Shown here piece after piece: positions 313-17,473 of a DNA stretch of 22,274 bases. The translations under genes were made by a program, and so were the position numbers. The notes beneath the pieces were generated by a model. It saw nothing but the letters and a program-made list of their open reading frames with translations. It ran no database searches and had not been told where the DNA came from. Source of the stretch: Candidatus Schekmanbacteria bacterium (lineage in GTDB: Bacteria; CSSED10-310; JACPHN01); contig JACPHN010000042.1 in assembly GCA_016188575.1 (NCBI GenBank), positions 1-22,274 of the forward strand, written 5' to 3'. The number at the start of each line of letters is the position of its first letter. Position 1 is the stretch's first letter.

Positions 313-717
313 CTACCGCCCCGCGGCCCGGCTACTGTCGTTCAAGCTGCAACGAAAACCCAGATCCACTGCCATTGGGCACGCAACGTAACAGACTGCC
401 ATTGGGCACGCAACGTAACAGACGTCGTTCGTCGGAATCGGGCAGCCCGACTTCTTGAGCTCATCAACGATTATCGCATAGCGCGCAGACGTTTCCTCCG
501 TGATTTCCAGTACCTGCACACGTCGCGACGCAAGAAAACCATCCAGCTCGTCCCGGTTTCTCTTCTCTCTCGAACCAGCGCGGAAGCCAGACAGCAACTC
601 CCCGATCACAACAGGATCGAGATGCAGCTCGTCTGCCCCTTGCACGGCACGTACGATCCTCGGGTGACCTCGGAAAAAGGCCGAATAGGCGGACGTATCA
701 AGCAGAATCCGCCTCAA
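313..717 (-). pseudogene. PIN-domain (VapC-type) toxin with damaged C-terminus
   Basis: This encodes 134 residues from a TTG start that overlaps the antitoxin stop (TTGA). AGGAG at 726-730 sits 8 bases upstream; an in-frame GTG at 723 is the alternative start. The N-terminus RILLDTSAYSAFFRG is a PIN-domain first strand with its metal-binding Asp. It is followed by a VIGELLSGF segment with the second acidic residue and PIPTND with the third. PIN toxins are sequence-selective RNases inhibited by the cognate antitoxin. After PTND the family normally continues with a V/I-W-I-A-A helix and a TxDxxF motif carrying the last acidic residue. Here the helix segment CYVACPMAV occurs twice because of a 27-bp tandem duplication, and the protein then ends without the TxDxxF motif. 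None of the three minus-strand frames downstream restores it. I infer an inactive or altered toxin. Confidence 0.7.
368..421. repeat. Perfect 27-bp tandem duplication
   Basis: Two identical 27-base units lie at 368-394 and 395-421 with no spacer. The unit is a multiple of three, so it adds nine residues in frame to the end of the PIN toxin gene (CYVACPMAV read twice on the minus strand). A recent slippage or repair event is likely because the copies have not diverged. Confidence 0.95.
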
Positions 718-974
718 CCCCACAGCTCCTTTTCGATGGTCCGTTGCTTCCGCACCGCTTGATCGAGCTCGTCCGCTTCCTCCTGCGACCAACTTCCTGC
801 GAACCGGTCCAGATCGTGATGCAGAGTCTCGCCTCCTTGCGCCCGAATGCAAAGAAGACCTTCTTCCAGGAGACGGATGATCGTCTTGCTCAGACTCGTT
901 CCCCTCTCACTGGATTCCTCCTCGATTCGTCGGGCCAGCTCTGGTGGTAGGTTCCTCAAGGTAATGGCTTTCAT
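714..974 (-). CDS. Ribbon-helix-helix antitoxin (VapB/FitA type)
   Basis: This encodes 86 residues from ATG at 974, with GGAGG seven bases upstream. Residues 1-40 (MKAITLRNLPPELARRIEEE, then a second helix around SLSKTIIRLLEEGL) match a ribbon-helix-helix DNA-binding fold: a short strand, then two helices. The acidic and basic C-terminal half would be the part that wraps and inhibits the PIN toxin. The stop codon overlaps the toxin start, the usual translational coupling of such pairs. RHH antitoxins of this class normally repress their own promoter; a palindrome in the promoter spacer (1030-1042) and another at 988-1000 fit that. The antitoxin looks intact although the toxin does not. Confidence 0.85.
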   Translation of the reverse strand: MKAITLRNLPPELARRIEEESSERGTSLSKTIIRLLEEGLLCIRAQGGETLHHDLDRFAGSWSQEEADELDQAVRKQRTIEKELWG

Positions 975-1300: not shown

Positions 1301-4276
1301 TCACACCATCTGCCGCCGCACGAGCTCCGCGAACAGGCCTTCCTGCGCCACGAGCTCGGCGTACCGCCCGCTTTGCACGACGCGCCCACGGTCCAACACG
1401 TAGATGCGGTCTGCGTTCATGATGGTGCTCAGCCGGTGTGCAATCACGATGCGCGTCGCCTTCAGTCCCTCCAGGCTCTGGCTGACCACCTTCTGGGTCC
1501 GATTGTCCAACGCGCTCGTGGCCTCGTCGAAGAAAAGCATTCGGGGACGGGTCACGATCGCCCGCGCGATCATCAGGCGCTGGCGTTGCCCCCCCGAGAA
1601 CGTCGCCGCGCCTTCGCTCACGAGCGTGTGCATGCCCATCGGCATGGCCTTGATGTCAGCCTCCAGTCCCGCCAATCTCGCCGCTTCCCAGGCGTCGGCC
1701 ACGGTGAGCAGCGACGAGCCGACGATGTTGGTCATGATGTCCCCGCTCATCAGCTTGCTGTTCTGCAAGACGACGCCGATCTGGCGGCGCACCCCTTGAA
1801 GATCGAGCCCGGCGAGGTCCTGGCGGTCATAGTAGATCGACCCGGCTTCGGGAGTCTCGAACCCGAGCAGGAGCCTGAGCATCGTGGACTTCCCTGAGCC
1901 AGAAGGGCCGACCAGGGCGATAAACTCACCGGGCTCCGCGCGCACCGAGACGTCGTCAAGAATCAGCGGCCCATCGGCCTTGTAGCGAAAGGAGACGTGA
2001 CTGAATTCGATCGCCCCCGACAGCTCGCCTGCGGCCGCACGCGCGGGGTCCTCTTCGGGTTGCTCGGCGAGAATCGGCTGTAGCCGCTCGTACAGTGGGA
2101 TGATCTGCAGCATGCCCGAAAGCGCGCCCACCAGGCCGATGGCCGCAGCGACGAGCTGACCCAGCGCGGCATTGAACGCCAGGAAGTCGCCCGTGCCCAG
2201 GGCCGTCGCTTCCCGGTTCACGTAGAGAACCGCGGCGAATACCGCCATCGACGCCAGGACCGGATAGGCGGCGTTGAACGTGATCAGCCCATTGCCGGCG
2301 CGCCTGGCCGAGTAGGTGAGCCGCCGCTGCACGGAAAAGCGCGACGCCCACTCACGATAGACCCGCGATTCCAGCGCTGCCACGCGGATCTTCGAGATCG
2401 CGCTCAGGATTTCGAACAGAAAGCTCGAAATCCTGCCCTGGACTGTGTTGAGCGCGCGTTGATGCCGGAGCTGAACCCACGTCAACAACGCCGTCGTCGC
2501 GATCAGAATGAGCAGTACGGCGGTCGCCACGGCGGCCACGGATGCACTGTAGTAGTACAGCAGCCCGAAGTTGAATACGGAGAAGAGCGCCCCGAGAACC
2601 GCGTTCACCGTTGTCCCGGACAGCAGTTGCCTGATTCTGCTGATCCCCATCGTGCGGGAGGCGAGATCGCCCACCGTGAACCGCCGGAAAAAGGAGGCGG
2701 GCAGCGACATGACCCGATCCCACACGGCGGCCTGCAGGCTGGCGTCGAGCACACCCGAAATCCGGAGCATGCCGATCGATCGCGTCACTTCGAACAGGCT
2801 CGCCGCCACCGCCGCCGCGAACAGCGCCGCGGCGAGCTGAGCGAGCTGGCCGCGCTCGGCGCCCGGAATGATGTCCCCGAAGAGGTAGCCCGTCAGAATC
2901 GGCGTAAGCATGTTGAGCACGCCCCCGGCGAGCCCCACCAGGAGCAGCGGCACCAGCTCCCGCGACAGGCTGCGCGTTCCGAAGCGCCACAGGTCTTTGG
3001 CGCCGAGTGGGCGCGCCGGCAGCGCCGGGTAGAACATCGTGGCAATCCCGGAGAGGCGTCGCGCCAGCGGTTCGTCGACCGGCTGTCGTCGATTCTCCGC
3101 GGCGTCCACGAGCTCGTACCCCGTGGCGCCGACCGGGAGCAGCGCCACCGGGCGTTTCCTGTCTCCTTCGAGCTCCAGGAAGGCGAGCAGTGGGCCGTTG
3201 CTGCGCTCCCACCAATCACCTTTCAGCACCACAGCGCGGGTGCGGAAACGCGAAGCGCGCGCGAGCTCGCCGAGCGGGTCGCGGCGCCGGACCGGCGCGC
3301 CGCTGTCCTTCGCCGGCGGCACGACAGTCATCCCCAGTGCGCCGCCAACGAGCCGGCACGCCGCCAGCAAAGGATCCTCCACCGCGGCCGCCGGGACAAC
3401 TGCACCGCGACCAGGTTCGACTACCGCCAGGAGGTCGCGCAGCGCGAGATCGGCGGCGTGCTCGTCAAGGTCCCGCCGCGCCGCGAAGCGGGCGCGGAAG
3501 CCTGCGAGTGAATCCTCGACGCGCTGCCGGGCGACGACCGCAAACAGCTCGTGGAACGCCCGCAGCGCCGCCCACAGCTCGCCGGACTCGAGCACCTCGG
3601 CCGTTCCCCGCGCCCGCACCGAGGCCGACTTTACGGTCGCGAGCGCCCAGGTTGCCGGCGTCAGCGGCACGCTCCCGCTGCCGTTGCGCGCGGGAATGTC
3701 CCACTGGCCGCAGTATCGGGCGGCTCCAGCCGGATGTTCCAGCCAGACCACGCCTGCGCCGCAGCTCATGGCGGCGCCTTCCTTGTCGGTAACGACGCTC
3801 CCGCCCGCTTCCAGGGTCCGGGCATCGCGCGGTGCTCCGCTTCCACCCACCGCCCCTGCCAGCGCCGTCAGCCACGCGTCCACCGCGGCGCACAGGCCGG
3901 CGCGCGCCACCCCATCCGACTCGCCCCGGAGCACGTCCGCGAGCCGGACCGGCGCCGCTCGCCCCCCCGGCCCCCCGGCCGCAACGAACGCCAGATCACC
4001 CGCGTATTCCCCGTTTCCGCCCATCGCGAACAGCAGGCCCCCGCTGTCAGCGGTCAGCATGAACACCCGGGCGGAGGTCTCTCCGCCTTCGTCTCGCCGC
4101 TCCGCGAACACGTTTATCGGCCCCTGTGCAACGTACCAGGCGCCTGCTTCGCCGTCGCCGTCGCCCCCGCTCAGATCCAGCGGCCGGTTGCTCGTGACCG
4201 CGACCTCCTCGCCCAGCGCCGCCGGATCCGGAGCCCACACCGCGCCGCCCTCTCGCTTTTTCGCCACTGCTTCCAT
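1301..4276 (-). CDS. NHLM-type peptide exporter: ABC transporter without peptidase (ABC2)
   Basis: This encodes 991 residues from ATG at 4276, five bases after the previous gene's stop and with GGAG in that gene's last codons. The open frame extends further upstream but only over the preceding gene. Residues 1 to about 420 lack a C39 peptidase; an early segment (GAWYVAQGPINVFAE) fits the cupin or cyclic-nucleotide-binding-like fold seen at the N-terminus of the second ABC protein of NHLM peptide-export loci. A six-helix ABC exporter domain follows at about 430-720, then the ATPase: Walker A GPSGSGKST with Lys796, signature FSGGQRQR with Ser894, Walker B FFDEATSAL with Asp917-Glu918, and switch IAHRLSTI. 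All ATPase motifs are intact. With the upstream C39 exporter and HlyD protein it should form the export pump for the NHLP peptide, perhaps as a heterodimer half. It is last in the operon. Confidence 0.9.
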   Translation of the reverse strand: MEAVAKKREGGAVWAPDPAALGEEVAVTSNRPLDLSGGDGDGEAGAWYVAQGPINVFAERRDEGGETSARVFMLTADSGGLLFAMGGNGEYAGDLAFVAAGGPGGRAAPVRLADVLRGESDGVARAGLCAAVDAWLTALAGAVGGSGAPRDARTLEAGGSVVTDKEGAAMSCGAGVVWLEHPAGAARYCGQWDIPARNGSGSVPLTPATWALATVKSASVRARGTAEVLESGELWAALRAFHELFAVVARQRVEDSLAGFRARFAARRDLDEHAADLALRDLLAVVEPGRGAVVPAAAVEDPLLAACRLVGGALGMTVVPPAKDSGAPVRRRDPLGELARASRFRTRAVVLKGDWWERSNGPLLAFLELEGDRKRPVALLPVGATGYELVDAAENRRQPVDEPLARRLSGIATMFYPALPARPLGAKDLWRFGTRSLSRELVPLLLVGLAGGVLNMLTPILTGYLFGDIIPGAERGQLAQLAAALFAAAVAASLFEVTRSIGMLRISGVLDASLQAAVWDRVMSLPASFFRRFTVGDLASRTMGISRIRQLLSGTTVNAVLGALFSVFNFGLLYYYSASVAAVATAVLLILIATTALLTWVQLRHQRALNTVQGRISSFLFEILSAISKIRVAALESRVYREWASRFSVQRRLTYSARRAGNGLITFNAAYPVLASMAVFAAVLYVNREATALGTGDFLAFNAALGQLVAAAIGLVGALSGMLQIIPLYERLQPILAEQPEEDPARAAAGELSGAIEFSHVSFRYKADGPLILDDVSVRAEPGEFIALVGPSGSGKSTMLRLLLGFETPEAGSIYYDRQDLAGLDLQGVRRQIGVVLQNSKLMSGDIMTNIVGSSLLTVADAWEAARLAGLEADIKAMPMGMHTLVSEGAATFSGGQRQRLMIARAIVTRPRMLFFDEATSALDNRTQKVVSQSLEGLKATRIVIAHRLSTIMNADRIYVLDRGRVVQSGRYAELVAQEGLFAELVRRQMV

Positions 4277-4281
4277 CACCG

Positions 4282-6480
4282 TTACTCCGCTGCAATCAAG
4301 CGCGCGTACGTACCGTCCTGCCGGATCAGCTCGTCGTGGATACCGCGTTGGACCACCTTGCCGCGGTCCAGCACGATGATTTCGTCCGCGTCCCGGATCG
4401 TGCTCAGCCGGTGCGCAATGATCAGGCACGTGCAGCCGCGCCGCCGGATGTTCTCGTCGATGATGCGCTCCGTCGTTGCGTCGAGCGCGCTGGTGGCCTC
4501 GTCGAGCACGAGCAGCGCCGGGTTGCCTACCAGCGCTCGCGCGATCTCCAGGCGCTGCCGCTGCCCGCCGCTGAAGTTCGAGCCGCCCTCGGCCACGGGG
4601 CTGGCGTACCCCCCCGCTCGCGCCGCAATGTCGTCGTGGATGTGGGCGTCCTGAGCCGCCTGCACGATGACCTCCTCCGGGAGCGTCGTGTCCCACATCG
4701 CCAGGTTATCGCGCACCGAGCCCTCCAGCAGAAAGATCTCCTGGTCCACGAGCGCGACCGACCCGGCAATAACCCGGCGATCGTGCGCCCGAAGCGGCGC
4801 GCCGTCCAGCCGGACCTCGCCGGCCCACGGCGCGTAGAGACCCGTGACGAGCTTGGCGACTGTCGATTTGCCGCTCCCCGAGCCCCCGACGAGAGCGACG
4901 CGCGCACCCGGCCGCAACGAAAGCGAGAAGTCCGTGATCAGCGCCGGGGCAAGTCGACTGTAACCGAACGACACCCCTGCCAGCTCGAGCCGCCCCGAAA
5001 GCCGGACCGGGCCTCCGTTGCTCCCGCCCCTGCTCGCCTCGCCGCACGCCGGGTCCACCGCGTACCGCACGACGTCGTCGATGCGCGCCATGTCGGCCTC
5101 CACCTCTTGCAGGGTGCTGCCCAGGCTCACGAGCTGGTTGATCGGCCTCATGAAGCTCCCCATGAGCGCCTGAAACGCGATCAGCGTGCCCATCGTGAGC
5201 TCGCCGTCCATGACCCGCAGGCCACCGATTCCGAGGATCGCCACCGTGTTTACTGTCCCCAAGAACCCCGGCACCGCGCCCAGAAACGCCGACATCCTGC
5301 CGAGCTCCTGTTGCGCGTTGAGCACCTTCGCCTGGTAACCAGACCAGCGCGTGAAGAAGTCTCCTTCCGAGCCGGTCGCCTTCAGAGTCTCGATCATCAT
5401 CAGCCCGTTCATCGCCGCGCCGTGCACCTTCCCCATATCCTGCTGCATGCGCTGGCTGCCGTCCTTGCGCCGGCGCGAAACGTAGCGCAGCGCCGCGATA
5501 TTCAGGCCGGCCACCGACAGGCCGATGACGGTCAGCACGGCGTCGTAAACGAACATGATGGAGACGAAGAAGGCGATCTGGACCAGGCTGACGACTGTGG
5601 TCGCCAGGTCTCCCGAGAGAAGCTGAGCTACCCGGTCATTGCTGCTCACGCGCTGACTGATGTCGCCGGCGTAGCGCTGGGTAAAAAACTCCACCGGCAA
5701 CCGTAAGACGTGCCAGAGAAACCGCCCCGTCGCGGCGATTGCGAGCTTGGTTTCCAGCCGCAGCAGGTACTTGCGCTGCAGCCAGGTCAGCGCCCCTTGC
5801 AGAAGCGCCGCAAGCCCCATGCCGAGGAGCAAGGGCGTCATCCAGTCGTGCCGCTGCCCGACCAAAATCTGATCGACGAAGGTCTTGGTGAAGATCGGAA
5901 TGACCAGGCCGGGGATGACGAGGGCGAGCCCTACCAACACCACGTAGGTCAGCGCCGGCGCCGAGCCCGCGAGCCGGCTCCGCAGCGCTGGCCAGATCGT
6001 GCGCGGCTGCCCGCCCTTCTTGAAATCCGGCCCGGGCTCAAAGGTAAGCACCACGCCCGAAAAGGCCTGATCGAGCTCCTCCGGGCTGACGGTCCGAGGC
6101 CCCGCCGCCGGGTCGTTGAGGTAGACGAGCCCCTTTTGAATCCCCTCGACGACGAGAAAGTGGTTGAAGTTCCAGTGGATAATGAACGGCGGCTGCAGCT
6201 CCCGCAGGTTTTCGGGCGTCTTGCGAAAGCCCTTCGCCACCAGCCCGTAGGTGCGCGCGGCCTGCACGATGTTTTTCGCCGTCACGCCGTCCCGTGAGAC
6301 GCCGGTCGCGAGCCGCAGCTCCTCCAGCGGCACATGCCTGCCGTGATGAGCGAGGACGATGGCCAGAGACGCGGCGCCGCACTCGACGGCCTCCATCTGT
6401 AGGATCGTTGCGGTGCGGATGCGCTTGAAGGTCGGCTTGGTCGCGGAGTTCGCGGCAGGTTCGGCCGTCGTGTTGGTCAT
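4282..6480 (-). CDS. NHLM-type peptide exporter: C39 peptidase-ABC transporter (ABC1)
   Basis: This encodes 732 residues from ATG at 6480 with GGAGG a few bases upstream. Residues 1 to about 145 are a C39 bacteriocin-processing peptidase: Gln28 and Cys34 in LQMEAVECGAASL, His107 in IIHWNFNHFLVVEG, and Asp123 in LNDPAAG, the complete oxyanion-plus-triad set. These enzymes cut leader peptides after a double Gly during export. A six-helix transmembrane exporter domain (about 165-450) and a nucleotide-binding domain follow: Walker A GGSGSGKST with Lys538, signature FSGGQRQR with Ser637, Walker B VLDEATSAL with Asp660-Glu661. The length fits the first ABC protein of NHLM loci. The obvious substrate in the window is the precursor at 13997-14308, whose Gly87-Gly88 precedes a short core. 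It lies between the HlyD adaptor and ABC2 in one operon. Confidence 0.94.
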   Translation of the reverse strand: MTNTTAEPAANSATKPTFKRIRTATILQMEAVECGAASLAIVLAHHGRHVPLEELRLATGVSRDGVTAKNIVQAARTYGLVAKGFRKTPENLRELQPPFIIHWNFNHFLVVEGIQKGLVYLNDPAAGPRTVSPEELDQAFSGVVLTFEPGPDFKKGGQPRTIWPALRSRLAGSAPALTYVVLVGLALVIPGLVIPIFTKTFVDQILVGQRHDWMTPLLLGMGLAALLQGALTWLQRKYLLRLETKLAIAATGRFLWHVLRLPVEFFTQRYAGDISQRVSSNDRVAQLLSGDLATTVVSLVQIAFFVSIMFVYDAVLTVIGLSVAGLNIAALRYVSRRRKDGSQRMQQDMGKVHGAAMNGLMMIETLKATGSEGDFFTRWSGYQAKVLNAQQELGRMSAFLGAVPGFLGTVNTVAILGIGGLRVMDGELTMGTLIAFQALMGSFMRPINQLVSLGSTLQEVEADMARIDDVVRYAVDPACGEASRGGSNGGPVRLSGRLELAGVSFGYSRLAPALITDFSLSLRPGARVALVGGSGSGKSTVAKLVTGLYAPWAGEVRLDGAPLRAHDRRVIAGSVALVDQEIFLLEGSVRDNLAMWDTTLPEEVIVQAAQDAHIHDDIAARAGGYASPVAEGGSNFSGGQRQRLEIARALVGNPALLVLDEATSALDATTERIIDENIRRRGCTCLIIAHRLSTIRDADEIIVLDRGKVVQRGIHDELIRQDGTYARLIAAE

Positions 6481-6493
6481 GTGCCGCCTCCGC

Positions 6494-7753
6494 CTAGATG
6501 CCGAGCTTCTTGCGAATGGCGGGGATCAGCAGCGCGATGGGCCGGTCTCGCCGTAACACGATGTTCGCCCCGAACATGGTGCCGCTGCTGAGCCGCAGCT
6601 CGGGCCCCGCCGACGAGGACCACTGATAGCCGGAGGGTGTCGCCGGATCCTTTGCGAGCTCGACCTCGATCTCCAGCGGCGGCCCCTGAGCCGACAGCAC
6701 CTTTACCAGCGCGTCGTTCGCCAGCAGGCGCATCATGCCCCGCGGCGTCGAGGGAAATGCGGAGACGCGGGTTACCTTTCCCAGCATGAACCCGTACTCT
6801 TCCTGCTTGACGGCGGCGGGCGAGATCTGCACGATCATGTTGGTTTCGACTTCCTTGCCCCCGCCAGCCGGCACATACAGCACCGCCTGTAGATCGCGGT
6901 TGAGCAGCTCCAGCGTGAGCAGCGATTCGCCCTGCCTGATGATCGAGCCCTCGACCTGCAGCATCTCGAGCACCCGTCCATCGTACGGAGAGCGGAGCTG
7001 GGCGTTATCTTCGAGCTCCTTTTGCGCCTGGTCGAGGCGGAGCTTGGCGTCAAGGAGCACCTGTTTGGCGGTCTCGAGATCGTAGTGCTGCGAGCCGCTC
7101 TGCTGGAGCTTGGTGGTCTCGAGCGACTGCAGCGCGAGGCGGTTGTCGTTGAGCTCGTTTCGCGTCGCGGACAGCGTTTTTTCCGTGGTCAGCGGCACCT
7201 GCTTGGTGACCAGGTTCTTTTCGAGCAGCTTCTGCTCGTTCGCCATTTTCTCCTCGAGCACCGCGATTTGCCGCTCGAGCCCCGCGATCTTCACGCGGTA
7301 GTTATCCTTTTGTCGGTCGATGTCGCGCCCCGAGAGCTGCTGGTGCTCCTCGGTGAAGCTGAGAACGTCCTGATACTTGATCTTGGCCTGCAGGTATCCC
7401 GCCGCGGCATCGTCCACGGCGTCCAGCAGCTTCGGCTGGTGCAGGTCAGCGACGATCTGGCCGGCCTTGACCTCGTCGCCGACGTTGACGTGGACTTTTT
7501 CGAGCGGGCCCGTCCCGGTGGATACCACGTCAAAAACGCCGCCGCTGCGGATCATGATACCGGTACCGGACAGCTTCATGGGGATCGACCCAAAGATTCC
7601 CCAGACCAGTGTTGCCAGCAGCACGGCCCCGAGGCCACCGAGCGCGAGCCACCCGGTCGGGTTGGTCACCTGAACGAGCTGGTCGAGCTGTTCGGGAGAG
7701 GACAGACGTTCCAGTGCTACCTTGCGAAAAATGCCTTGTTTCTCATCCGCCAT
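6494..7753 (-). CDS. HlyD-family membrane-fusion protein of the NHLP export system
   Basis: This encodes 419 residues from ATG at 7753. The N-terminus carries LSSPEQLDQLVQVT (residues 17-30), a stretch I associate with the HlyD-type protein of NHLM loci, then one membrane helix at about 35-57. A split biotinyl-lipoyl-like domain follows (about 80-105 and 252-282). Its halves are separated by a long charged heptad-rich region (about 110-250) that should form the coiled-coil hairpin of membrane-fusion proteins. The C-terminal 130 residues form the beta-rich part. Such proteins join an inner-membrane ABC exporter to the envelope and, in Gram-negatives, to an outer-membrane channel. No TolC-like gene is present here. 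It is 13 bases upstream of the C39 exporter and 37 bases downstream of the CHAT gene. Its own ribosome binding site is weak, suggesting dependence on operon transcription. Confidence 0.92.
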   Translation of the reverse strand: MADEKQGIFRKVALERLSSPEQLDQLVQVTNPTGWLALGGLGAVLLATLVWGIFGSIPMKLSGTGIMIRSGGVFDVVSTGTGPLEKVHVNVGDEVKAGQIVADLHQPKLLDAVDDAAAGYLQAKIKYQDVLSFTEEHQQLSGRDIDRQKDNYRVKIAGLERQIAVLEEKMANEQKLLEKNLVTKQVPLTTEKTLSATRNELNDNRLALQSLETTKLQQSGSQHYDLETAKQVLLDAKLRLDQAQKELEDNAQLRSPYDGRVLEMLQVEGSIIRQGESLLTLELLNRDLQAVLYVPAGGGKEVETNMIVQISPAAVKQEEYGFMLGKVTRVSAFPSTPRGMMRLLANDALVKVLSAQGPPLEIEVELAKDPATPSGYQWSSSAGPELRLSSGTMFGANIVLRRDRPIALLIPAIRKKLGI

Positions 7754-7790
7754 CGGTCACGCCCACGCAGGAGTGCTGCCAAGTCTCTAG

Positions 7791-10700
7791 TTACTCACCC
7801 ACGACAATCCAGCCGGCCCAGTTGACGGGCGCGGCGTACTGTCCGCTCGCCTCGTCCCGGAGGCGCCGCTGCGCCGCGACGAGCGCGGACGCGGCCGGCA
7901 TGCCTCGATCCCAAAAGCTCTCGTAGAAGCTCACCATCATGCGTCTGGTCGCCTCATCGGGAACTTTCCACAAGGAGATCACTATACTGCGCGCGCCGGC
8001 CGCTGCAAGCGCGGCGCGGAATCCGAGCACGCCCTGGCCGGTCGCCTGGGTTCCCCGGCCGGTTTCGCACGCCGAAAGCGTGATCAATCGGAGCCCGCTC
8101 AGGTCCAGGCCGACGATTTCCTCGGCCAGCAGGACGCCGTCGCTCCTCGCAAAGCTGTTGGCGGCGGCCAGAGCGAGCCCGGATTCGAGGAGCGGATTGC
8201 GATCGGCGGCACCGGGTGGGCGCGACTCGCCGGCCGCCATCAGCGCCAAGACGCCACGAGTCGACGCCGCGGCGGTCGTCGTCTCCAGCGAGAAGAACCC
8301 GTGCGTTGCCAGATGCGCGTATTGCGCGGCCTGCAGCTCCGCCACGACGGTGCGTTTGTCCGCTTCGGCGCCGGTAAGGAGGCGCGCGCTGATACCGCGC
8401 CGGGTCGCGATCTCGCCGACCGCGCGGGCTTCCTCGGCGGTTGCGGGCAATGGCGCAAAGGGTGCCTCGGAGCCTGCGGCTCCGACCGCGCCCGCGGCCT
8501 CGTCGGCCCGGCCCCCAAAGTCGATGCCACCGACCACCAGCGCCACAGCGCCCGCACCGGTTGGGCCGGTGGCCTCGCCGCCGCGCGCGCGGATCATGGC
8601 CAGCTCGCGCGCCGAATTGGTCTGCAGCGTCAATCTCGGCCCCGCCTGCCCGCCGCCGTCCGCCTCGAAGAGCTGCCACGGCAGCCGGGCAAGCTCCGCG
8701 TCGGGGCTGACCCAGACCCGGCGAATCCGCGCCGGGAAGAGCTTCACGATGGGCGCCCACAGTCGGCCTTCGAGGTCGCGCCACAGCGGCTCTGCGCCGG
8801 GCGCCGACGAGACCGCGGCCAACCACGCGCCGATGGCGGTCTCGATTTCCGCCGCCGGCCCCAGGCGCACGAAGCGCGGGGAGTCGCCGCGCATGACGAG
8901 AAAAGCGGCGTATTCGGCCTGGCTGCGCGCTCCGTCGACCCAGCGGTCGTGGCGATACAGGTCCACCAGCGCCTCATCCTCGCGCAGCGCGGACTGGAGG
9001 CCCGCGACGTCCCCCGCGCTGACCGCGTCCGCAACCACCCCGGCCGCCGGCGCCTTGCGCGCCACGGCGCGCTCCCGCGCTTCCTTCTCCTGCGTCAGCT
9101 TCTCATACTGGCGGCGCCACGCGTCCAGTGACAGCTCGCCAAGCCGCCGATAATGCGCGGACAGCGCTGCCCGCGCCGCCCGGAGCGCGTGCACGTCCGC
9201 CGCCGCGGCCGGGTCGGCGGCAAGCCTGCCAAGCGCAGTCTCCCGCCGCAGCGCTTCGATCAGCAACCCCTTCCAGGAAAAGAGCAAGCCGTATGTTGCC
9301 GCCGGATCTTCTGCCGCCCCCAACGCCGAAAGCAATAGCCCCACCTGACGGGGAACGGTCGCGTCGATAAACAGCCGCTGTTCGGCGAAGGACAGCAGCG
9401 GGACGATTTTCTCCAGATGGCCGGCCACGATTTCGGAGGCCTTCCGCAGGCGCGGTGCCGCCGTCCCGAGATCGCCGCCTCGCCATTCCGCCACGGCGAG
9501 ATCGTCGAGCAGGCGCGCGACGTCGGGGTGGGCGCTTCCCACCGCCTTTTCCAGGTAGCCGAGCGCGGTCAGGTAGCGGCCGCGGGCCTGCTCGAGCTTG
9601 CCAAGACCGACCTCGGCGGCCGCCAGGCCGGCTAGCAACCGCGCGACGTCGGGATGCTCCTTGCCGAGCCGTTTCTCCCACGAGGGCAGCGCCCGTTCGT
9701 ACAAAGCGCATGCCGCGGCGAGCTCGTTGGCGTCCGCAAGCAGCCTGGCGAGGTTTACCAGGTCGAGCCCCACGCGCGGGTGGTCCTTCCCGAAGGCCTC
9801 CTCATCGATGGCGAGCGCCTGCTCAAAAAGTGGGCGGGCCGTGGCCGTCTCCCCGCGCGCCTGGTAAACCCCGGCCAGATAGCTCATCGTCGTGGCCACC
9901 TTGGGGTGCGCCTCTCCGAGCCGGTGGCGGCGGATTTCCAGCGATTCCTTCAGCGCCGACTCCGCCTGCTGATAGTCGCCTCGCGCCTCCAGCATCGTGC
10001 CGAGCTCATCGAGCACGTCAGCGACGCCCAGGTGATCGGCTCCGTATGCGGCGCGGCGAATCTCCAGAGCGCGCTCGGCGAGCGGTTGCGCCGCCGCGTA
10101 ATTGCCCAGAGACTTCTCGAGCGCCGTCATCTTGACCAGTGTCTTCGCCACATCGGGATGAGCCTCTCCCAGCCGTTCGCGCTGGATCTCCAGAGCGCGC
10201 TCGTGGAGCTTCCTGGCCGCATCCGGATCGCCCTGCGCCTTGAGCACGAGTGCGAGATTGTTGAGGCTCTCGGCCACCTTCGGGTGGCGTGGAGCAAGGG
10301 TTCGCTCGCGCATGTCGGCGGCCCGCTGGTAGAGCTCACGCGCCGCCGCAAGGTTCCCCTGCGCCCAGCGCAATCCCGCCATGGCGTTGAGCGAGGCCGC
10401 CAGGTCTGCATGCTCGGGCCCGAGCAGTTCGGTGCGGATCGCCAGCGCCCGCTCGAACAGCGGTTCCGCCTCGGCGTATCGGCCGAGCGCCCAGAGCGTG
10501 GCGGCGAGCCCGGCGGCAGCGGCGGCCGTGCGGGCATCCCGCTCCCCGCGTCCGCCGCTCGCCAGGATCGCCTGAGCCTGCTGAAATCTCTGGCGCGCCG
10601 CCTCGAAGTGCTCTTCCGCGCGCTCGAGCTCCCCGAGCTCCAAGAGCACCGCGGCCGCCTCGGGAGAATCCGCACCCGCTTCGGCCGGCGCGGCAGCCAG

Positions 10701-10994
10701 CGCCGCCTCCAGCAGGCGCCGCGCCTCGGCAAACGCGCCCAGCTCGCGCTCCACCGCCCCGAGCTCGCGCTGCACGGCCACGGTGTCCTTGTGCTTCGGG
10801 CCGAGCTCGCGGGTGCGCGCAGCGAAAACCCGGCCGAGCTCCTCGCGCGCCTCCCGATACCGGCCCTGCTTCAGCAGCTCGGCCGCAGCCTGGGCAGACG
10901 TGCTCACATCCGCACACCCCCGCCCCACCAACAGAAACGCCCAGCAGACAGCCGCAGCACCCACAACAGCGATGACCCGCAGCCGCACGCCCAT
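7791..10994 (-). CDS. Secreted CHAT-domain protease-like protein with TPR array
   Basis: This encodes 1067 residues from ATG at 10994, one base after the FN3 gene's stop. The ATG at 11063 would place 23 residues before a clear signal sequence. Residues 1-30 (MGVRLRVIAVVGAAAVCWAF) look like a signal peptide; GRGC is a poor lipobox. From about 35 to 520 there are roughly eleven TPR units of the 42-residue kinesin-light-chain type (LLGPEH..LA.SLN.LA...). The C-terminal third is a CHAT domain, a caspase-like clan-CD cysteine peptidase fold: catalytic His898 in AHLATHGFFS and Cys976 in LITLSACETGRG, both present. In characterised systems TPRs sense a partner and the CHAT domain cleaves a target. 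Gene order places it with peptide export, so its substrate may be the peptide, the precursor leader, or an envelope protein; none is proven. Confidence 0.92.
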   Translation of the reverse strand: MGVRLRVIAVVGAAAVCWAFLLVGRGCADVSTSAQAAAELLKQGRYREAREELGRVFAARTRELGPKHKDTVAVQRELGAVERELGAFAEARRLLEAALAAAPAEAGADSPEAAAVLLELGELERAEEHFEAARQRFQQAQAILASGGRGERDARTAAAAAGLAATLWALGRYAEAEPLFERALAIRTELLGPEHADLAASLNAMAGLRWAQGNLAAARELYQRAADMRERTLAPRHPKVAESLNNLALVLKAQGDPDAARKLHERALEIQRERLGEAHPDVAKTLVKMTALEKSLGNYAAAQPLAERALEIRRAAYGADHLGVADVLDELGTMLEARGDYQQAESALKESLEIRRHRLGEAHPKVATTMSYLAGVYQARGETATARPLFEQALAIDEEAFGKDHPRVGLDLVNLARLLADANELAAACALYERALPSWEKRLGKEHPDVARLLAGLAAAEVGLGKLEQARGRYLTALGYLEKAVGSAHPDVARLLDDLAVAEWRGGDLGTAAPRLRKASEIVAGHLEKIVPLLSFAEQRLFIDATVPRQVGLLLSALGAAEDPAATYGLLFSWKGLLIEALRRETALGRLAADPAAAADVHALRAARAALSAHYRRLGELSLDAWRRQYEKLTQEKEARERAVARKAPAAGVVADAVSAGDVAGLQSALREDEALVDLYRHDRWVDGARSQAEYAAFLVMRGDSPRFVRLGPAAEIETAIGAWLAAVSSAPGAEPLWRDLEGRLWAPIVKLFPARIRRVWVSPDAELARLPWQLFEADGGGQAGPRLTLQTNSARELAMIRARGGEATGPTGAGAVALVVGGIDFGGRADEAAGAVGAAGSEAPFAPLPATAEEARAVGEIATRRGISARLLTGAEADKRTVVAELQAAQYAHLATHGFFSLETTTAAASTRGVLALMAAGESRPPGAADRNPLLESGLALAAANSFARSDGVLLAEEIVGLDLSGLRLITLSACETGRGTQATGQGVLGFRAALAAAGARSIVISLWKVPDEATRRMMVSFYESFWDRGMPAASALVAAQRRLRDEASGQYAAPVNWAGWIVVGE

Positions 10995-10995
10995 G

Positions 10996-13797
10996 CTACC
11001 CGCGGCGCTCTTGCTGTCGCTGCCGGCCGGCGCGGCGCAGGGCCACCCGGGCGCAAGCGGCAAGCGTGATCCCTGCCGCCAGCGCCATCGGCGCGGTGCC
11101 GCCGAGCGGGACCGGGACCTTGATCACCCCCATGTCCGTGTCCGCACCGCGATTACCCAAGAAGTCGCTGAGCTGCAACGTCAGCGCGTAGGACGTGCCG
11201 GGTCGCAACCCCACGAGCCACAGCTCGTGTGACATCTCGTCGCGCGGCGACGCGACGACACGAACCTGTCCCGGCAATGGCGTCGTTTCGCCGTCGCTTC
11301 CCACTTGCACCGCCAGGTAGCGAATCACCGAGCGCGCCGGCTCATCGGTCGTCCAGCGGACCCGCGCGACACCGCGCCGGTCGTCCGTCTCGATCGAAAA
11401 GGCGGAAGTGACCTTCGGCGAGATTGCATCGGGGTTCAGCGGCATATCCGCGCTGGCCGCGCCGCTCTCGGGAGAAACTGACGTCAGGCCAGCGAGATCC
11501 ACCGCCACCACGCGGTAGTACACCATCTGATCCGCGTCGAGCCCCGCGATGTAGACGCGGTGCGAGCGTCCGATCCCGGAGGAGGTGGCGCTGTCGTCCA
11601 GCGCTTCCGAACCCCCGAATTCGACCATACCGGTGGTCGGTTCGTCCGTCTCCCAGCTCACCAGCAGCAACGTCGGCGACAGCGCCCGCGCGACGACGTT
11701 GCCGATCACCGGGGGGGTCGTGTCCGGGCTCGGCGAGGTGGCGAAATCGGCGCCATCGTCCGCGCCCGCCGCAGTCACCGTGCCGTCCGTGTCGACCGCG
11801 TTGACTTCGAACGCGAATTCGGTCGCGGCGGGGAGGTTCGGCCAGACCGGTTCCTGCTTCATGTCCGGTTCGCCGCGCCCCACCGAGTAGTCGTAATTGT
11901 GGGTCCTTGGCCCGCCTTGCGGGTAGCGCGTCACGTGAAGAAGCGACCGCATCGGGCGGCACAGCTCCCACTCGAAAAACGCCCAGGAGTCGGAAACGAA
12001 CGAGACCGTTCCCGGGTTGACAAAGCACTGCTCCGGGAGCTCCTCGCTGGCCCAGGTCGAAAGCGACGCCGCGGCTTCGTTCTGGCGTCCGTACAGATCG
12101 GTGCCGGAGACGATGTAGGTGTAGTCGGACCCCGGTGTCAGCTCCGTAAGCACGACGCGATGACGGCGCCGCCAGCCGGGCAGGAAGCGCGTTTTCGTCG
12201 CGGTCCGGCGATCGGCGGCGGGAGGCGACGAGCGGCGCGCCGTCTCATCATCATAAGCGATCGCGCTGGTGGTGGGCCTGGAGGTCATCCATTCGACAAC
12301 GGCCGTGGTCGCGGTGACCCGCCGGGCGTCGGCCACCGGCCCTTCGACGAACTGAAAGGCCCCGACAGGTGGCAGCCGGCGGGTGCGACACGTTGTGGAA
12401 CGGTGCGCGCCGAGCTTTCCCCACCGGTCACGCGGCTCCACGTCGAACGTATACCGCGTGTTGGAGCCCAGCTCCGGGATCAGCAGCTCGTGTTTGCGCG
12501 CCAGCTCCAAGGAGACGATTCGGCCGGCAAGCGGCGAGCCTTCCGGCCCGTAGCGCACGGCCACCGACGCCGGCTGATCGAGCTCAACTTCGAGCAACGC
12601 GGAGGTGAGCGTCGTCGAGAACGAGTCGCAGCTCAGGTGCAACACCCACGGAATCCCTGAAGCGGTGATCGTACGAGCCGCGCTCGGCGGCTGTGGCGGG
12701 GACGTCGCCGGCCGGCGATCGTGAAACAGCACGGGCGGGGTAGAGAACGTGAAATCCGCGGAGGAGAGCGCGGCACTGGAGGGAGTCACGCCGCTCACGC
12801 GGACGTGGTATGTCGTCTCGGGATCCAGGCCGGTCAGCTCGATTCGCGGCTGGAGCGTCGCGGTAAGTCCAGTGAGCGACTCGCCGTAGGCTTGCGTTGT
12901 GCCGAGCTCGACGGTGGGAGTAATGAGCGTGCTCACCGGCCAGGTCAGGGTGGCGGCGAGCTCGCTGAGGCCGACTGCGATCGGCGCCTCTTCGAGGATG
13001 GGCGCCACCGCTTCGAGAGGATCGGGAGGACTGGCGGTGATCTTTGCCGCGCACGCCTCCTGGTCCCAGATATCCGTTACGCACACCTCGACGTCGATGC
13101 TGTCGGCCGGTGCCAGGCCGGCGATGACGGCAGACGCGCTTGTGGCGTATCCATCGGGGTCAAGGTGCTGATCGAGGATAACGCCAGTTCCATAATTGAT
13201 GACGGCCGTGGCCGGAGTGGCGGTGGACCACTGGATCAGTGCGGTCCACGTGGAGCAGCCGGGCTCACAGGCCGTGGCCCCGACCAGCGGTCCCCAGACG
13301 AACAGAGGGCTTGCGGCGTGCGCATCGGTGTCGCCTGCTTCCGTGCGCGCAAAGCTCCCCACCGATGCGCCGATGCTCGGATCGATTTCCGCCAGGTCGA
13401 TGACAAACGCGGAATAGGCGTAAGCAGTCCCGGCCAGCGCAGTGGCGTCCGTCAGCGCAAAACCGGCCGTTTGCCCGATGGCGTCACCCGCGAGCGGCGA
13501 CATGGGATACCCGTCCGCGAAGACATTCCGCCGCACCGTGAAGGCCGTTACCTTGCCCTCAGTAGACGTTGCCGGCGGCGACCACGTCAAGACCACGCCG
13601 GAGGCGGTCACGGTGGCCTGAAACTGCGTCACATCGGGCAGGAGATCGGCCGGCTGTGCGGCCGATGACGCCAGGATCACGAGCCATGCGGTGGTCAGGA
13701 GAGCTGTGAGCCGGGGATGCGCGCGGGACGTCGCACCAACAGATGGGCGCGTCTGTGTTGCCAGGCGGACGACCTGTGATCGCCGGCAGTGGCTCAT
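10996..13797 (-). CDS. Exported multi-FN3-repeat surface protein with C-terminal membrane anchor
   Basis: This encodes 933 residues from ATG at 13797 (MSHCRRSQVV), with AAGG eight bases upstream. Upstream in-frame ATGs would extend the protein with atypical sequence into the promoter region. A hydrophobic segment at about 30-48 (LTALLTTAWLVILASSAAQ) is a signal peptide with a long basic n-region. The rest reads as about eight fibronectin-III-like beta-sandwich units, recognisable by repeated W/L-T-W...T, Y.V/R.Y and L.P.T.Y...V patterns, for example LSPTLLLVSWETDEPTTGMV and LRPGTSYALTLQLSDFLG. It ends with a Gly-rich turn, a roughly 18-residue hydrophobic helix and an Arg-rich tail, an arrangement like C-terminal sorting or anchor signals. 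It is the first gene of the minus operon and one base from the CHAT gene, so the two are probably translationally coupled and act together outside the cytoplasm. A role as a surface scaffold or adhesin is inference. Confidence 0.85.
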   Translation of the reverse strand: MSHCRRSQVVRLATQTRPSVGATSRAHPRLTALLTTAWLVILASSAAQPADLLPDVTQFQATVTASGVVLTWSPPATSTEGKVTAFTVRRNVFADGYPMSPLAGDAIGQTAGFALTDATALAGTAYAYSAFVIDLAEIDPSIGASVGSFARTEAGDTDAHAASPLFVWGPLVGATACEPGCSTWTALIQWSTATPATAVINYGTGVILDQHLDPDGYATSASAVIAGLAPADSIDVEVCVTDIWDQEACAAKITASPPDPLEAVAPILEEAPIAVGLSELAATLTWPVSTLITPTVELGTTQAYGESLTGLTATLQPRIELTGLDPETTYHVRVSGVTPSSAALSSADFTFSTPPVLFHDRRPATSPPQPPSAARTITASGIPWVLHLSCDSFSTTLTSALLEVELDQPASVAVRYGPEGSPLAGRIVSLELARKHELLIPELGSNTRYTFDVEPRDRWGKLGAHRSTTCRTRRLPPVGAFQFVEGPVADARRVTATTAVVEWMTSRPTTSAIAYDDETARRSSPPAADRRTATKTRFLPGWRRRHRVVLTELTPGSDYTYIVSGTDLYGRQNEAAASLSTWASEELPEQCFVNPGTVSFVSDSWAFFEWELCRPMRSLLHVTRYPQGGPRTHNYDYSVGRGEPDMKQEPVWPNLPAATEFAFEVNAVDTDGTVTAAGADDGADFATSPSPDTTPPVIGNVVARALSPTLLLVSWETDEPTTGMVEFGGSEALDDSATSSGIGRSHRVYIAGLDADQMVYYRVVAVDLAGLTSVSPESGAASADMPLNPDAISPKVTSAFSIETDDRRGVARVRWTTDEPARSVIRYLAVQVGSDGETTPLPGQVRVVASPRDEMSHELWLVGLRPGTSYALTLQLSDFLGNRGADTDMGVIKVPVPLGGTAPMALAAGITLAACARVALRRAGRQRQQERRG

Positions 13798-13845
13798 CAC
13801 GAAGACCTTGTTCCTGTGGAGGGGGCGGACGCAACGATGTACCCA

Positions 13846-13874
13846 CGTTATCATGGTGGATCGAAAATCCTCAA
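13846..13874 (-). promoter_or_regulatory. Candidate promoter of the FN3-CHAT-exporter operon
   Basis: On the minus strand TTGAGG (13874-13869) is followed after 17 bases by ATAACG (13851-13846), giving a start near 13839 and a leader of about 42 bases before the ATG at 13797. The -10 box is a modest match. It lies in the 199-bp space shared with the oppositely oriented precursor gene, so a common regulator could act on both arms. Confidence 0.35.
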
Positions 13875-13949
13875 CGGGGTGTGCCACAATTGCCTGCACG
13901 ATCTGCGCCAGTGATGCGGGGCGGCTCGGCACTCATGTTGCATGCCCGA

Positions 13950-13955
13950 TACAAT
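13950..13955 (+). promoter_or_regulatory. Candidate -10 box for the precursor operon
   Basis: TACAAT at 13950-13955 is the best -10 match in the divergent region and would give a start near 13962, 35 bases before the precursor ATG. No TTGACA-like box lies at the right distance, so the promoter may need an activator or another sigma factor. Confidence 0.3.
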
Positions 13956-13996
13956 GGGTCGGGACTGCCGCAACCTCCTCAGGGTGGAACAAGGGA

Positions 13997-14308
13997 ATGA
14001 ACCGCAAAGAGTTCGAGAGCCGCATCATCGGTCGCGCTCTCCGCGACGCCGCATTCCGCAAGAGGCTGATCGAGCGGACGCGCGAGGTGATGGCCGAAGA
14101 GCTGAGCGCGCTCGGTGAGGACGCGACGCTCCCGAGCGATCTTCGCGTCACCGTGCTTCAGGAAACGGCATCCCGCAAGTACATTGTGCTGCCGCGCACC
14201 ATGGACACCCTGGAGGACGGCACGCTCACCATGGAGGAGCTCGGCGACATCGCCGGCGGCACGGCGTTTTCCGTCTTCGTGCTCGTATATACGGCGGCCT
14301 TCTCATGA
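13997..14308 (+). CDS. NHLP-family leader peptide precursor with Gly-Gly cleavage site
   Basis: This encodes 103 residues from ATG at 13997, preceded by purine-rich AGGGTGG and AAGGG. Residues 1-88 look like a nitrile-hydratase-alpha-related leader: a charged helical N-terminus (FRKRLIERTREVMAEEL), then a Pro-containing segment and KYIVLPR, then an acidic helix LTMEELGDIAGG ending in Gly87-Gly88. KYIVLP followed by an acidic helix and GG is the typical NHLP layout. Cleavage after Gly88 by the C39 exporter at 4282-6480 would release the 15-residue core TAFSVFVLVYTAAFS. The core has no Cys, charge or Pro, one Tyr, two Thr and two Ser, and is mostly hydrophobic, so it is a poor substrate for thioether or thiazole chemistry. 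No modifying enzyme is encoded nearby. It may act unmodified, for instance on membranes, or be modified by an enzyme elsewhere. Confidence 0.85.
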   Translation: MNRKEFESRIIGRALRDAAFRKRLIERTREVMAEELSALGEDATLPSDLRVTVLQETASRKYIVLPRTMDTLEDGTLTMEELGDIAGGTAFSVFVLVYTAAFS

Positions 14309-14318
14309 GCTTCGACGC

Positions 14319-14347
14319 TCGGGGGTGAACCGCCGTGCGGACCCCGA
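14319..14347 (+). other. Hairpin between the precursor and downstream genes
   Basis: TCGGGGGT (14319-14326) pairs with ACCCCGA (14341-14347) with one bulged G, and inside it CCGC (14330-14333) pairs with GCGG (14337-14340) around a CGT loop. It starts 11 bases after the precursor stop and has no T-tract. In peptide operons such hairpins often protect or partly terminate the short precursor transcript so that it outnumbers downstream messages; that role here is inference. Confidence 0.5.
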
Positions 14348-14396
14348 TGGCAGAGAGATGCCTGGTTCCTGACAATACCCTACAGGAGAGATGATC

Positions 14397-15095
14397 GTGC
14401 GCAAGAAAATTCTGGCTCTGGTTCCCATTTTTGCGTTGACGCTCGCGGCTGCCGCAGTCGCCGAGGACCGCGCCCCCGCGGGCGATAGCGCGGCCGCCGC
14501 GGCGGAGCAACCGAGCGGCATCGGCAATTATGTGCTGGCGACGGAGCTGCGGCGGTATGCGCAGCAAAACGAATCGGCGCTTGCATACGTGCTGGCTGCC
14601 GAGCTGGTGTCGGGTGTGACGGTGAACCCGGCAGCTACGGCCGCGGACGCCGCCGCCGGCGCCACCACGCCGCCGCTCTCGCCAACCTCATTGCTGGTGG
14701 AGGCGAGACGCCTCGCAGCCGGTGACGCGGACCTGCTCGCCTTGATTGCGCGGGCCGAGCATGCCGGCAAGTCGCGCGGCCGATCGGGGCAGAGCTACAT
14801 CGCATCGACAGCCGTGAAGTATGACACGCGCAGCGCGGCCGCCGGAGAGACCGGCACGTTCTCGCTCAGTTTTTCTCCTGGTCAGCGCGCCGAGATCGCC
14901 GTGGCCGGCGACGGATCGAGCAATCTCGACCTGTACGTCTTTGCTCCAGACGGAACCCTCGCGGCGTCGGATCTCGACTCGACGGACAACTGCATCGCGC
15001 GCTGGTACCCGAGAGCTGGTGGGGCCCACCGCGTGGAGGTGCGCAACGTCGGGCCGAAAGCAAGCTCATACTACTTCTATTCCAGCGGGAAATGA
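14397..15095 (+). CDS. Small secreted protein with PPC-like C-terminal domain
   Basis: This encodes 232 residues from GTG at 14397. AGGAG at 14384-14388 is 8 bases before the GTG but only 2 before the ATG at 14391, so GTG is preferred. Residues 1-22 form a signal peptide with an AVA-ED cleavage site. A low-complexity Ala-rich region follows, then an alpha-helical part (LATELRRYAQQNESALAYVL; SLLVEARRLAAGDADLLALIARAEHA). About residues 140-232 form a beta-sandwich like the bacterial pre-peptidase C-terminal (PPC) domain: FSLSFSPGQRAEIAVAGDG, SNLDLYVFAPDGTLAASDLDS, GGAHRVEVRNVG. PPC domains normally sit at the end of secreted peptidases; here the domain stands alone, and the next gene is a secreted peptidase whose start overlaps its stop (ATGA). 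It may be a partner, inhibitor or targeting subunit of that caspase. Confidence 0.8.
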   Translation: MRKKILALVPIFALTLAAAAVAEDRAPAGDSAAAAAEQPSGIGNYVLATELRRYAQQNESALAYVLAAELVSGVTVNPAATAADAAAGATTPPLSPTSLLVEARRLAAGDADLLALIARAEHAGKSRGRSGQSYIASTAVKYDTRSAAAGETGTFSLSFSPGQRAEIAVAGDGSSNLDLYVFAPDGTLAASDLDSTDNCIARWYPRAGGAHRVEVRNVGPKASSYYFYSSGK

Positions 15096-17449
15096 TGAGC
15101 AGGCGACACGGACGCGGCGCGTTCCGACATCGGCATCTCATTGCCGCCGTCGCGGTAGTGGTCTTCGTCGCCGCTTTGGCCGCGCCGCCCGCGGGTGCTG
15201 CAGGCTCGACGCGGCGCGCACTGATCGTCGCGATTGACCAGTATGTCGGGGCGCCGTCAGCGGCGCCGGCTACTCCACGCGCCGGGGGGCGCGGCGCCTG
15301 GGCAAACCTGGATGGTGCAGTCACCGATGGGGAATCCTTCCGGGACCTCCTCGTTGCCCGGTACGGGTACCGGAGCGAGGACATCATCTTGCTCACCAAC
15401 GCGGCGGCCTCGCGGCACCGCATTATCGACGCGTTTCGCACGCATTTGCTCGGGGAGCGCGGCCGCGGCGACTCGGCGCTGTTCTTCTACGCGGGTCACG
15501 GCTCGCAGGTGCGCAATTCGAAGTCCGACGAGCCCGATGGCCTCGATGAGACCATAGTCCCCGCCGATGCCAACGAGGGTGCCGCCGACATTCGCGACAA
15601 GGAGCTGCGGCGGCTCTACAACGAGGCGTTGGACAGAGGCATCGAGCTGATCGTCATCGCCGACAGTTGCCACAGCGGATCGGTGTCGCGTGGCCTGCCG
15701 GTGCGCCTGAAGTCGCGCTACCTTCCGCCGCTCCTGGAGGACATCGCCGACGCCTCCGACCCCGGCCCGAGCCCCGAGGAGCGCGGCGCGCTCATTCTGT
15801 CCGCGGCCCAGGATTATCAGGAGGCACTCGAACAGATCGACGAGCGGGGGCAAAGTCACGGTGCGTTCACGTACGCCCTGATGCGCGCGTTGGCGAGCGC
15901 GCCGCTCGACGAATCTGTAGAGGCGACCTTCCTGCGCGTGCGGGCGCTGTTGCGCGCGGGCGGCATTCCACAGGAACCGGTGCTCGCCGCGGTGGCCGAG
16001 CGGCGCCGGCAGCCCCTCATGGTCGCGCCCGGAGGCGGAGACGGTGGCGCCGCCGCGGGCAGGATCGCGTTTGCCGTGTCGCGCGCCCTCGGCGACGATC
16101 TGCTCGAGCTCCAGGGAGGTGGCGCGCTCGGCGTCCACGAGGGCGCCGAGCTCGTTCGGCAGGGAAGTGCCGAAGAAGTCCGGCTTCGTGTGACAGAAGT
16201 GAAGGGGTTGAGCCGATCCATCGCTCGGGTGGTGGCGGGGTCGACCGCAGCGGTCCGCCCCGGTGACCTATTCGCGCTGGACAGGTGGGCGGTAGTGCCC
16301 GGGGATGTCGGCCTCGCATTGTGGGCACCACCGCTCCACGCGGACGCAGAGGCATTCGCGCGCGACGTGGCGACGTTCCGAAAGGCGGTCGCAGCGGCAA
16401 GTGCCACCTGGGTGGAGGATCCGACTATGGTATCGCCGACACATGTCGTCCGCTGGACAGGAGAGGGCTGGGAACTGCGCGGCGAGGCGGACCAGACGCC
16501 TGCAGCGGGACCGGCCGCCGTGATCGAGGAGAACCTGAAGAAGCTGACGCCAACAGGGGACGGACCCGTCCGTCTCTTCGTGCACGCGCCGCCGCTGGCG
16601 CCGATCGACCTCGCCCGCATCGCCTCGGGTCAGGCGGGAGCTGATGCTTTCTACTTCGTCCCGGACCCGCGCAGCGCGGGTGCGCACCTCGTCGGCCGGG
16701 TTACCGCCGCTCAGACACTCGAATACGCGTGGATTCGACCCCTGTCCGTGGCCGCGGATGCCGAAGCGTCGACGCTTCCGGTGCGGTCTGACTGGTTCGC
16801 GGGCCCGCGGCCCGGCGATCCGGCGTCGGCCCTGGAAACGCAGCTCAACGAAGCCGCCCGGCGCCTCGCCAGGATTCGCGCGTGGCTGGCTCTCAGCCCC
16901 CCCGATGCCGGCATCTCCTTTCCCTATCAGCTCGCGCTGCGGAACGCCACGAGCGGCAATCTCGTGCGCGAAGGCCAGCTTCGTTCCGGCGAGCAGTACG
17001 GCCTGGTCCTGCACCGGAGCGACGCGCAGGTTGCGGATGCTGCTGCCCCGGCGCGGCGTTGGGTGTACGTATTCGTCATCGATAGCTTTGGCGGCGCAAC
17101 TCTGCTCTTTCCGCCCGCTGGCCGCGGCAACGTTGAAAACTACCTCCCGTACGCCGTTGACGGCCCGCCGCCTCAGGATATCCCGCTGGGGCCGCCCGTG
17201 GCCTTTCAGATCGGCCCTCCCTTCGGGCTCGACACCTACCTGCTGCTCAGCAGTGAGGAGGCACTGCCGAACCCTGACGTCCTGGCCTTTGCCGGGATTC
17301 GCACGCGCGGAGCCGCAGCCGGTGCCGAGGGCACGCCCTTGCAGCGCCTGCTGTTCGACGTCGGCGGCGCGACCCGAGGGGTGCACCCCGCTGTCCCGCT
17401 GAGCTGGTCTCTGGAGCGCATCTCCCTCCGCAGCGTGCCCGCGCCATGA
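15092..17449 (+). CDS. Secreted caspase-family (C14/metacaspase-like) peptidase
   Basis: This encodes 785 residues from ATG at 15092, overlapping the previous stop by ATGA. Residues 1-37 are a signal peptide with a basic start and an AVAVVVFVAALAAPP core. The caspase domain (about 40-310) has STRRALIVAIDQYVG, a YGYRSEDIILL segment, catalytic His136 in FFYAGHGSQV and catalytic Cys193 in IVIADSCHSGS. DGLDETIVPAD (about residue 150) is the acidic segment of metacaspase-like enzymes that prefer basic P1 residues. The remaining 475 residues are less familiar. The stretch from about 615 to 760 (LRSGEQYGLVLHRS, RRWVYVFVIDSFGGATLLFPP) resembles DUF4384-like regions found beside bacterial caspases and kinases. 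The precursor leader contains several Arg/Lys pairs, so direct processing is possible but unproven. The gene ends 20 bases from a convergent gene. Confidence 0.9.
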   Translation: MMSRRHGRGAFRHRHLIAAVAVVVFVAALAAPPAGAAGSTRRALIVAIDQYVGAPSAAPATPRAGGRGAWANLDGAVTDGESFRDLLVARYGYRSEDIILLTNAAASRHRIIDAFRTHLLGERGRGDSALFFYAGHGSQVRNSKSDEPDGLDETIVPADANEGAADIRDKELRRLYNEALDRGIELIVIADSCHSGSVSRGLPVRLKSRYLPPLLEDIADASDPGPSPEERGALILSAAQDYQEALEQIDERGQSHGAFTYALMRALASAPLDESVEATFLRVRALLRAGGIPQEPVLAAVAERRRQPLMVAPGGGDGGAAAGRIAFAVSRALGDDLLELQGGGALGVHEGAELVRQGSAEEVRLRVTEVKGLSRSIARVVAGSTAAVRPGDLFALDRWAVVPGDVGLALWAPPLHADAEAFARDVATFRKAVAAASATWVEDPTMVSPTHVVRWTGEGWELRGEADQTPAAGPAAVIEENLKKLTPTGDGPVRLFVHAPPLAPIDLARIASGQAGADAFYFVPDPRSAGAHLVGRVTAAQTLEYAWIRPLSVAADAEASTLPVRSDWFAGPRPGDPASALETQLNEAARRLARIRAWLALSPPDAGISFPYQLALRNATSGNLVREGQLRSGEQYGLVLHRSDAQVADAAAPARRWVYVFVIDSFGGATLLFPPAGRGNVENYLPYAVDGPPPQDIPLGPPVAFQIGPPFGLDTYLLLSSEEALPNPDVLAFAGIRTRGAAAGAEGTPLQRLLFDVGGATRGVHPAVPLSWSLERISLRSVPAP

Positions 17450-17461
17450 GGCTCACCACCA

Positions 17462-17473
17462 GGTGACGTCACC
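17462..17473. repeat. 12-bp perfect palindrome between convergent genes
   Basis: GGTGACGTCACC lies between the caspase stop (17449) and overlaps the stop codon of the convergent HExxH gene (17469). There is no long stem and no T-tract, so it is not a clear terminator. It may be a protein-binding site or chance. Confidence 0.4.

Follow-up and report, generated by a model that had tools for sequence, protein, structure and literature searches.

The locus analysed here raises the question of why a complete NHLP peptide exporter shares a divergent promoter region with putatively secreted proteins of the CHAT and C14 caspase families, and whether the exported peptide and these proteins belong to one system. 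The window, the whole stretch of DNA that was analysed, is one entire contig (C157, 22,274 bp) of a 9.2 Mb source genome.

Layout of the divergent locus

Two gene arms leave a 199-bp intergenic region in opposite directions (Table 1). The minus arm runs leftward through the genes for the FN3-repeat protein, the CHAT-TPR protein, HlyD, ABC1 and ABC2, with gaps of 1, 37, 13 and 5 bases, the ATG of the CHAT-TPR gene lying one base past the FN3 stop. The plus arm runs rightward through the genes for the NHLP precursor, the PPC-like protein and the caspase, the last two of which overlap by ATGA. This gene set, with its coordinates, gaps, overlap and divergent region, agrees at every point with the description in the earlier note. 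The precursor is not separate in the list of open reading frames because the ORF caller chose a longer GTG start.

Table 1. Features of the divergent locus (positions in the window)
Feature	Position	Strand	Evidence and remarks
ABC2, NHLP export ABC transporter permease/ATPase (TIGR03797)	1301..4276	-	925 bits vs cut-off 709; true start ATG 4276
ABC1, C39 peptidase/permease/ATPase (TIGR03796)	4282..6480	-	1105 bits vs cut-off 853; C39 domain PF03412
HlyD-type adaptor (TIGR03794)	6494..7753	-	341 bits vs cut-off 156
CHAT-TPR protein	7791..10994	-	PF12770 E 8e-57; signal-like N-terminal stretch; His/Cys intact
FN3-repeat protein	10996..13797	-	signal-like N-terminus; C-terminal hydrophobic stretch and Arg-rich tail
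Divergent intergenic region, 199 bp	13798..13996	.	sigma-70-like site, + strand, 13926-13955 (consensus match only)
NHLP-leader precursor, 103 aa	13997..14308	+	TIGR03793 53.6 bits vs cut-off 50.9; DIAGG followed by predicted core TAFSVFVLVYTAAFS
PPC-like protein, putatively secreted	14391..15095	+	full-length 30% homologue in Pseudosulfitobacter caspase/CHAT operon
C14 caspase (orthocaspase type), long C-terminal region	15092..17449	+	PF00656 E 5e-19; signal-like N-terminus; Gemmatirosa homologue 40%/766 positions

Scores of the exporter trio and of the precursor exceed the NCBIfam cut-offs, which for C39-ABC1, ABC2 and HlyD are equivalog cut-offs, and these family assignments are firm. The precursor has a Gly-Gly site between IAGG and TAF, and its predicted core comprises 15 residues, among which Lys and Arg are absent. 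Leader cleavage by the C39 domain and export of the peptide would follow from these protein families. ABC1 of the window is the only over-cut-off NHLP ABC1 among the matches listed for the genome, and none was present in the other genomes of the phylum (8 genomes in the phylum). No relatives of P0007 were found in 60 genomes searched. A pair of genes for a PIN-domain toxin and a ribbon-helix-helix antitoxin (window 313-974) adjoins the downstream end of the exporter, and a gene for a DUF7005 protein (17469-18671, E 1e-132) is convergent with the caspase gene.

The CHAT, TPR, FN3 and C14 assignments are likewise firm in Pfam. Both caspase-like proteins retain the catalytic His and Cys, in the motifs HLATHG and SACETG of the CHAT domain and YAGHGS and DSCHSG of the C14 domain. 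The label PPC has no Pfam match behind it and is based on a reading of the sequence together with a low-confidence β-strand model; single-sequence structure predictions of P0007 and P0008 were poor, with pLDDT of 50 and 36, inadequate for a fold search. Signal-peptide-like hydrophobic stretches at the N-termini of the CHAT, FN3, PPC and caspase proteins, seen by hydropathy only, suggest that all four are exported. At the C-terminus of the FN3 protein (window 10996-11100), the hydrophobic stretch and Arg-rich tail resemble a C-terminal sorting signal. PADLOC gave generic TPR and caspase matches only.

Among relatives of the caspase, those with solved structures are metacaspases, apart from one Geobacter protein that is uncharacterised. 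Metacaspases and orthocaspases cleave after Lys or Arg. For orthocaspases, this specificity is stated in a passage of PMC6426788. Given a core devoid of both residues and relatives of the metacaspase type, cleavage of the core by the window caspase is unlikely, which weakens the earlier suggestion that caspases activate the exported peptide. As leader peptidases, the caspases were ruled out, with the C39 domain covering the leader step and no Lys or Arg in the core.

The tight co-localisation of the exporter with putatively secreted CHAT and C14 proteins, recorded in the earlier note, is borne out. The 9.2 Mb genome encodes no CHAT protein besides that of the window and just three C14 proteins, the caspase among them, so a chance grouping is unlikely. 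With random placement, any of the three C14 genes would lie 8 kb or less from the single CHAT gene with p ~0.005, and the sole exporter would abut that CHAT gene with p ~0.001. The exporter and the genes for the putatively secreted CHAT and C14 proteins are probably co-transcribed.

A second NHLP site with modification enzymes on another contig

No modification enzyme, a usual though not universal feature of NHLP neighbourhoods, was found within the 22 kb window. When the whole genome was searched with the NHLP leader model, two further leaders came up, both on a contig of 13.7 kb (C168). One of these precursors ends in ...AAAGGLAVSKVKLDAECG, and the other is a leader without a Gly-Gly core. 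The same contig encodes a PoyD-type epimerase (TIGR04517, 453 bits vs cut-off 325), two radical-SAM proteins, one B12-binding and nearest to ApyD and the other YydG-like, and TolC; no exporter was found on it. The site proper, with the PoyD-type, ApyD-like and YydG-like genes and the leader without a Gly-Gly core, spans positions 1825-8660 (L006) at a GC content of ~50-59%, compared to 67% elsewhere, and has transposase fragments both internally and on its left border. Elsewhere in the genome no YcaO was found. A lone LANC_like match was rejected as a lanthionine cyclase, which it probably is not: its ORF has a lipoprotein-like start, and no NHLP or exporter HMM matches surround it.

The assembly is fragmented, with 275 contigs, 94% completeness and 3.7% contamination, so an origin of C168 in the same organism is likely, though not proven. 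The ends of the window and of C168 share no 21- or 31-mers by which the two contigs could be joined. The composition of the right half of C168 matches the genome; the left half (55% GC) fits less well and may have been acquired, although its correlation with the source genome is better than with the foreign loci tested. The absence of a modification enzyme beside an NHLP exporter is not the absence of such an enzyme from the genome.

On the simplest reading, the window exporter would serve the C168 precursors as well as the local one. In agreement with this, gene types found on C168 here adjoin the exporter in related loci. A stand-alone C39 match on another contig (C265) counts against it. 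The closest exporter relative found among genome contigs, with 58% identity in ABC1, is from Acidobacteria (L053), where PoyD (405 bits) and TolC are the trio's direct neighbours; in Kovacikia (L150), PoyD adjoins the exporter.

The CHAT/PPC/caspase set exists without an NHLP exporter

The earlier note had suggested a search for co-occurrence of the exporter trio with CHAT, FN3 and C14 genes. A profile search of 64 other NHLP exporter loci, picked by the ABC2 model at >450 bits, found no relatives of C14, PPC or FN3 and a CHAT gene beside a single further locus, in Nostoc, which is truncated by the contig end; these counts are lower bounds, because few sequences went into the profiles. The CHAT, FN3 and caspase genes are regularly missing from homologous exporter loci, an outcome that the earlier note had itself named as speaking against its reading. 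The Nostoc locus (L055 2347-9729) encodes a TPR-CHAT protein with a signal-like N-terminus, a histidine kinase, a response-regulator-like ORF and ShlB, all upstream of an NHLP ABC1.

Proteins of the adenylate/guanylate-cyclase type lie near the NHLP trios of four unrelated genomes (L046 1-579, L050 7511-9691, L054 3779-6079 and L059 17454-19868), those of L050, L054 and L059 being CHASE2-like. Proteins that bind cNMP are frequent near such trios, and a CHASE2-type gene is also present in the CHAT locus of Gemmatirosa.

Relatives of the window's plus-arm proteins occur in other phyla. Plasmid 2 of Gemmatirosa (L138) encodes a caspase homologue that can be aligned along its length, at 40% identity over 766 positions; a weak PPC-like match lies upstream of it, and the opposite strand carries CHAT-TPR genes. 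The PPC-like protein has a homologue on 46 Pseudosulfitobacter records; in the one record inspected (L137), it matches over the full length with 30% identity (E 9e-22), and the gene run comprises caspase, trypsin-like protease, hypothetical protein, PPC and CHAT. Sulfitobacter sp. THAF37 (L141) has a divergent CHAT-TPR/caspase pair without a PPC match. No NHLP exporter was seen near the CHAT/C14 loci of Gemmatirosa, Pseudosulfitobacter and Sulfitobacter. The window contains the same components: a CHAT domain with intact His/Cys joined to TPRs, a C14 protein with an intact dyad and a homologous C-terminal region, and a PPC-like protein homologous to that of Pseudosulfitobacter. The CHAT/PPC/caspase set makes up a module of its own, which exists independently of the NHLP exporter. 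Such a putatively secreted module, of which no description was found in the literature searched, recurs across unrelated phyla whether or not it is functionally linked to the exporter.

Readings of the locus and comparison with known systems

We propose that two known modules have probably been fused into one divergently transcribed, co-regulated locus in one lineage. The first would be a type I exporter of the usual NHLP (proteusin) kind, in which the C39 domain is predicted to cleave the leader at Gly-Gly, and ABC1/ABC2/HlyD would work with a TolC from another site of the genome to export the core peptide. Its substrates may be the local precursor and also, in trans, the NHLP precursors of C168 that are modified by radical-SAM enzymes. 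The second would be a secreted CHAT-TPR / PPC-like / C14-caspase proteolytic module, known free of an exporter from other phyla, which presumably couples a sensor (TPR, PPC or FN3) to proteases, either extracellularly or within the envelope. With shared promoters, peptide export and the protease module would be co-expressed.

It is unlikely, though worth weighing, that the two modules also communicate, the exported NHLP peptide being a ligand or regulator that is sensed by the secreted TPR-CHAT, PPC or FN3 protein and controls the C14 caspase outside the cytoplasm. The exporter genes form one tight operon with CHAT and FN3, the PPC and caspase genes directly follow that of the precursor, the genome has no second CHAT gene, and the Nostoc CHAT-TPR protein, histidine kinase and ShlB are likewise encoded beside an NHLP ABC1. 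However, C14, PPC and FN3 have no relatives in any other NHLP locus examined, the second module is found elsewhere without an exporter, and the core offers no Lys or Arg for orthocaspase cleavage. The core peptide may act as a ligand, and functional coupling through it is the main alternative to the two-module reading. That the peptide is a dedicated extracellular signal for the secreted CHAT-TPR/PPC/C14 module, a RiPP-type system wired to cell-surface caspase-like proteolysis, seems to us quite unlikely. If true, a functional link would mean that, in a bacterium, a small exported peptide controls extracellular caspase-like proteases.

A chance or recent neighbourhood, in which a rearrangement joined the modules with no functional link beyond promoter sharing, appears improbable. 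It would accommodate the lack of conserved co-occurrence in the 64 other loci and an exporter that can serve C168 instead, but it sits poorly with the same-strand packing, where the short gaps run on across the module borders, and with the low random expectation. Finally, the earlier proposal that the exported peptide is processed by caspase-like proteases standing in for the modification enzymes, which accords with a window free of such enzymes, fails on the PoyD-type, ApyD-like and YydG-like proteins, two leaders and TolC on C168 of the same genome, and is made very improbable by a C39 domain that already supplies leader cleavage, a core without Lys or Arg, and a review of RiPP leader proteases that does not mention caspases (PMC10885120).

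The window caspase resembles bacterial orthocaspases and the EACC1-type caspases of conflict systems in its C14 fold and His/Cys dyad. It differs from the EACC1 type in its signal-like N-terminus and falls far under the cut-off of NF047832 (31.7 vs 140 bits), outside that type; no EACC1/STAND partners were seen within the window.

The exporter half conforms to the NHLP/Nif11-type RiPP export system (TIGR03793, 03794, 03796, 03797; Haft et al. 2010, PMC2887384), with a nitrile-hydratase-like leader, Gly-Gly and the full ABC1/ABC2/HlyD trio in the usual order; compared to that system, the modification enzymes here lie on another contig. The PoyD-containing proteusin loci of Acidobacteria and Kovacikia carry the same PoyD family as C168 of the source genome, with PoyD beside the exporter there and, as far as the contigs show, unlinked here. 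The CHAT-TPR and FN3 genes take the position that PoyD and TolC hold in the closest exporter relative.

The plasmid modules of Gemmatirosa, Pseudosulfitobacter and Sulfitobacter differ from the window in having no NHLP exporter or precursor; no homologue of the FN3 protein was found in the plasmid records, nor in the NHLP loci, and Pseudosulfitobacter adds a trypsin-like protease. They share with the window the caspase (Gemmatirosa), the PPC protein (Pseudosulfitobacter) and a CHAT or CHAT-TPR gene nearby, and in Sulfitobacter and Gemmatirosa the layout is divergent as in the window.
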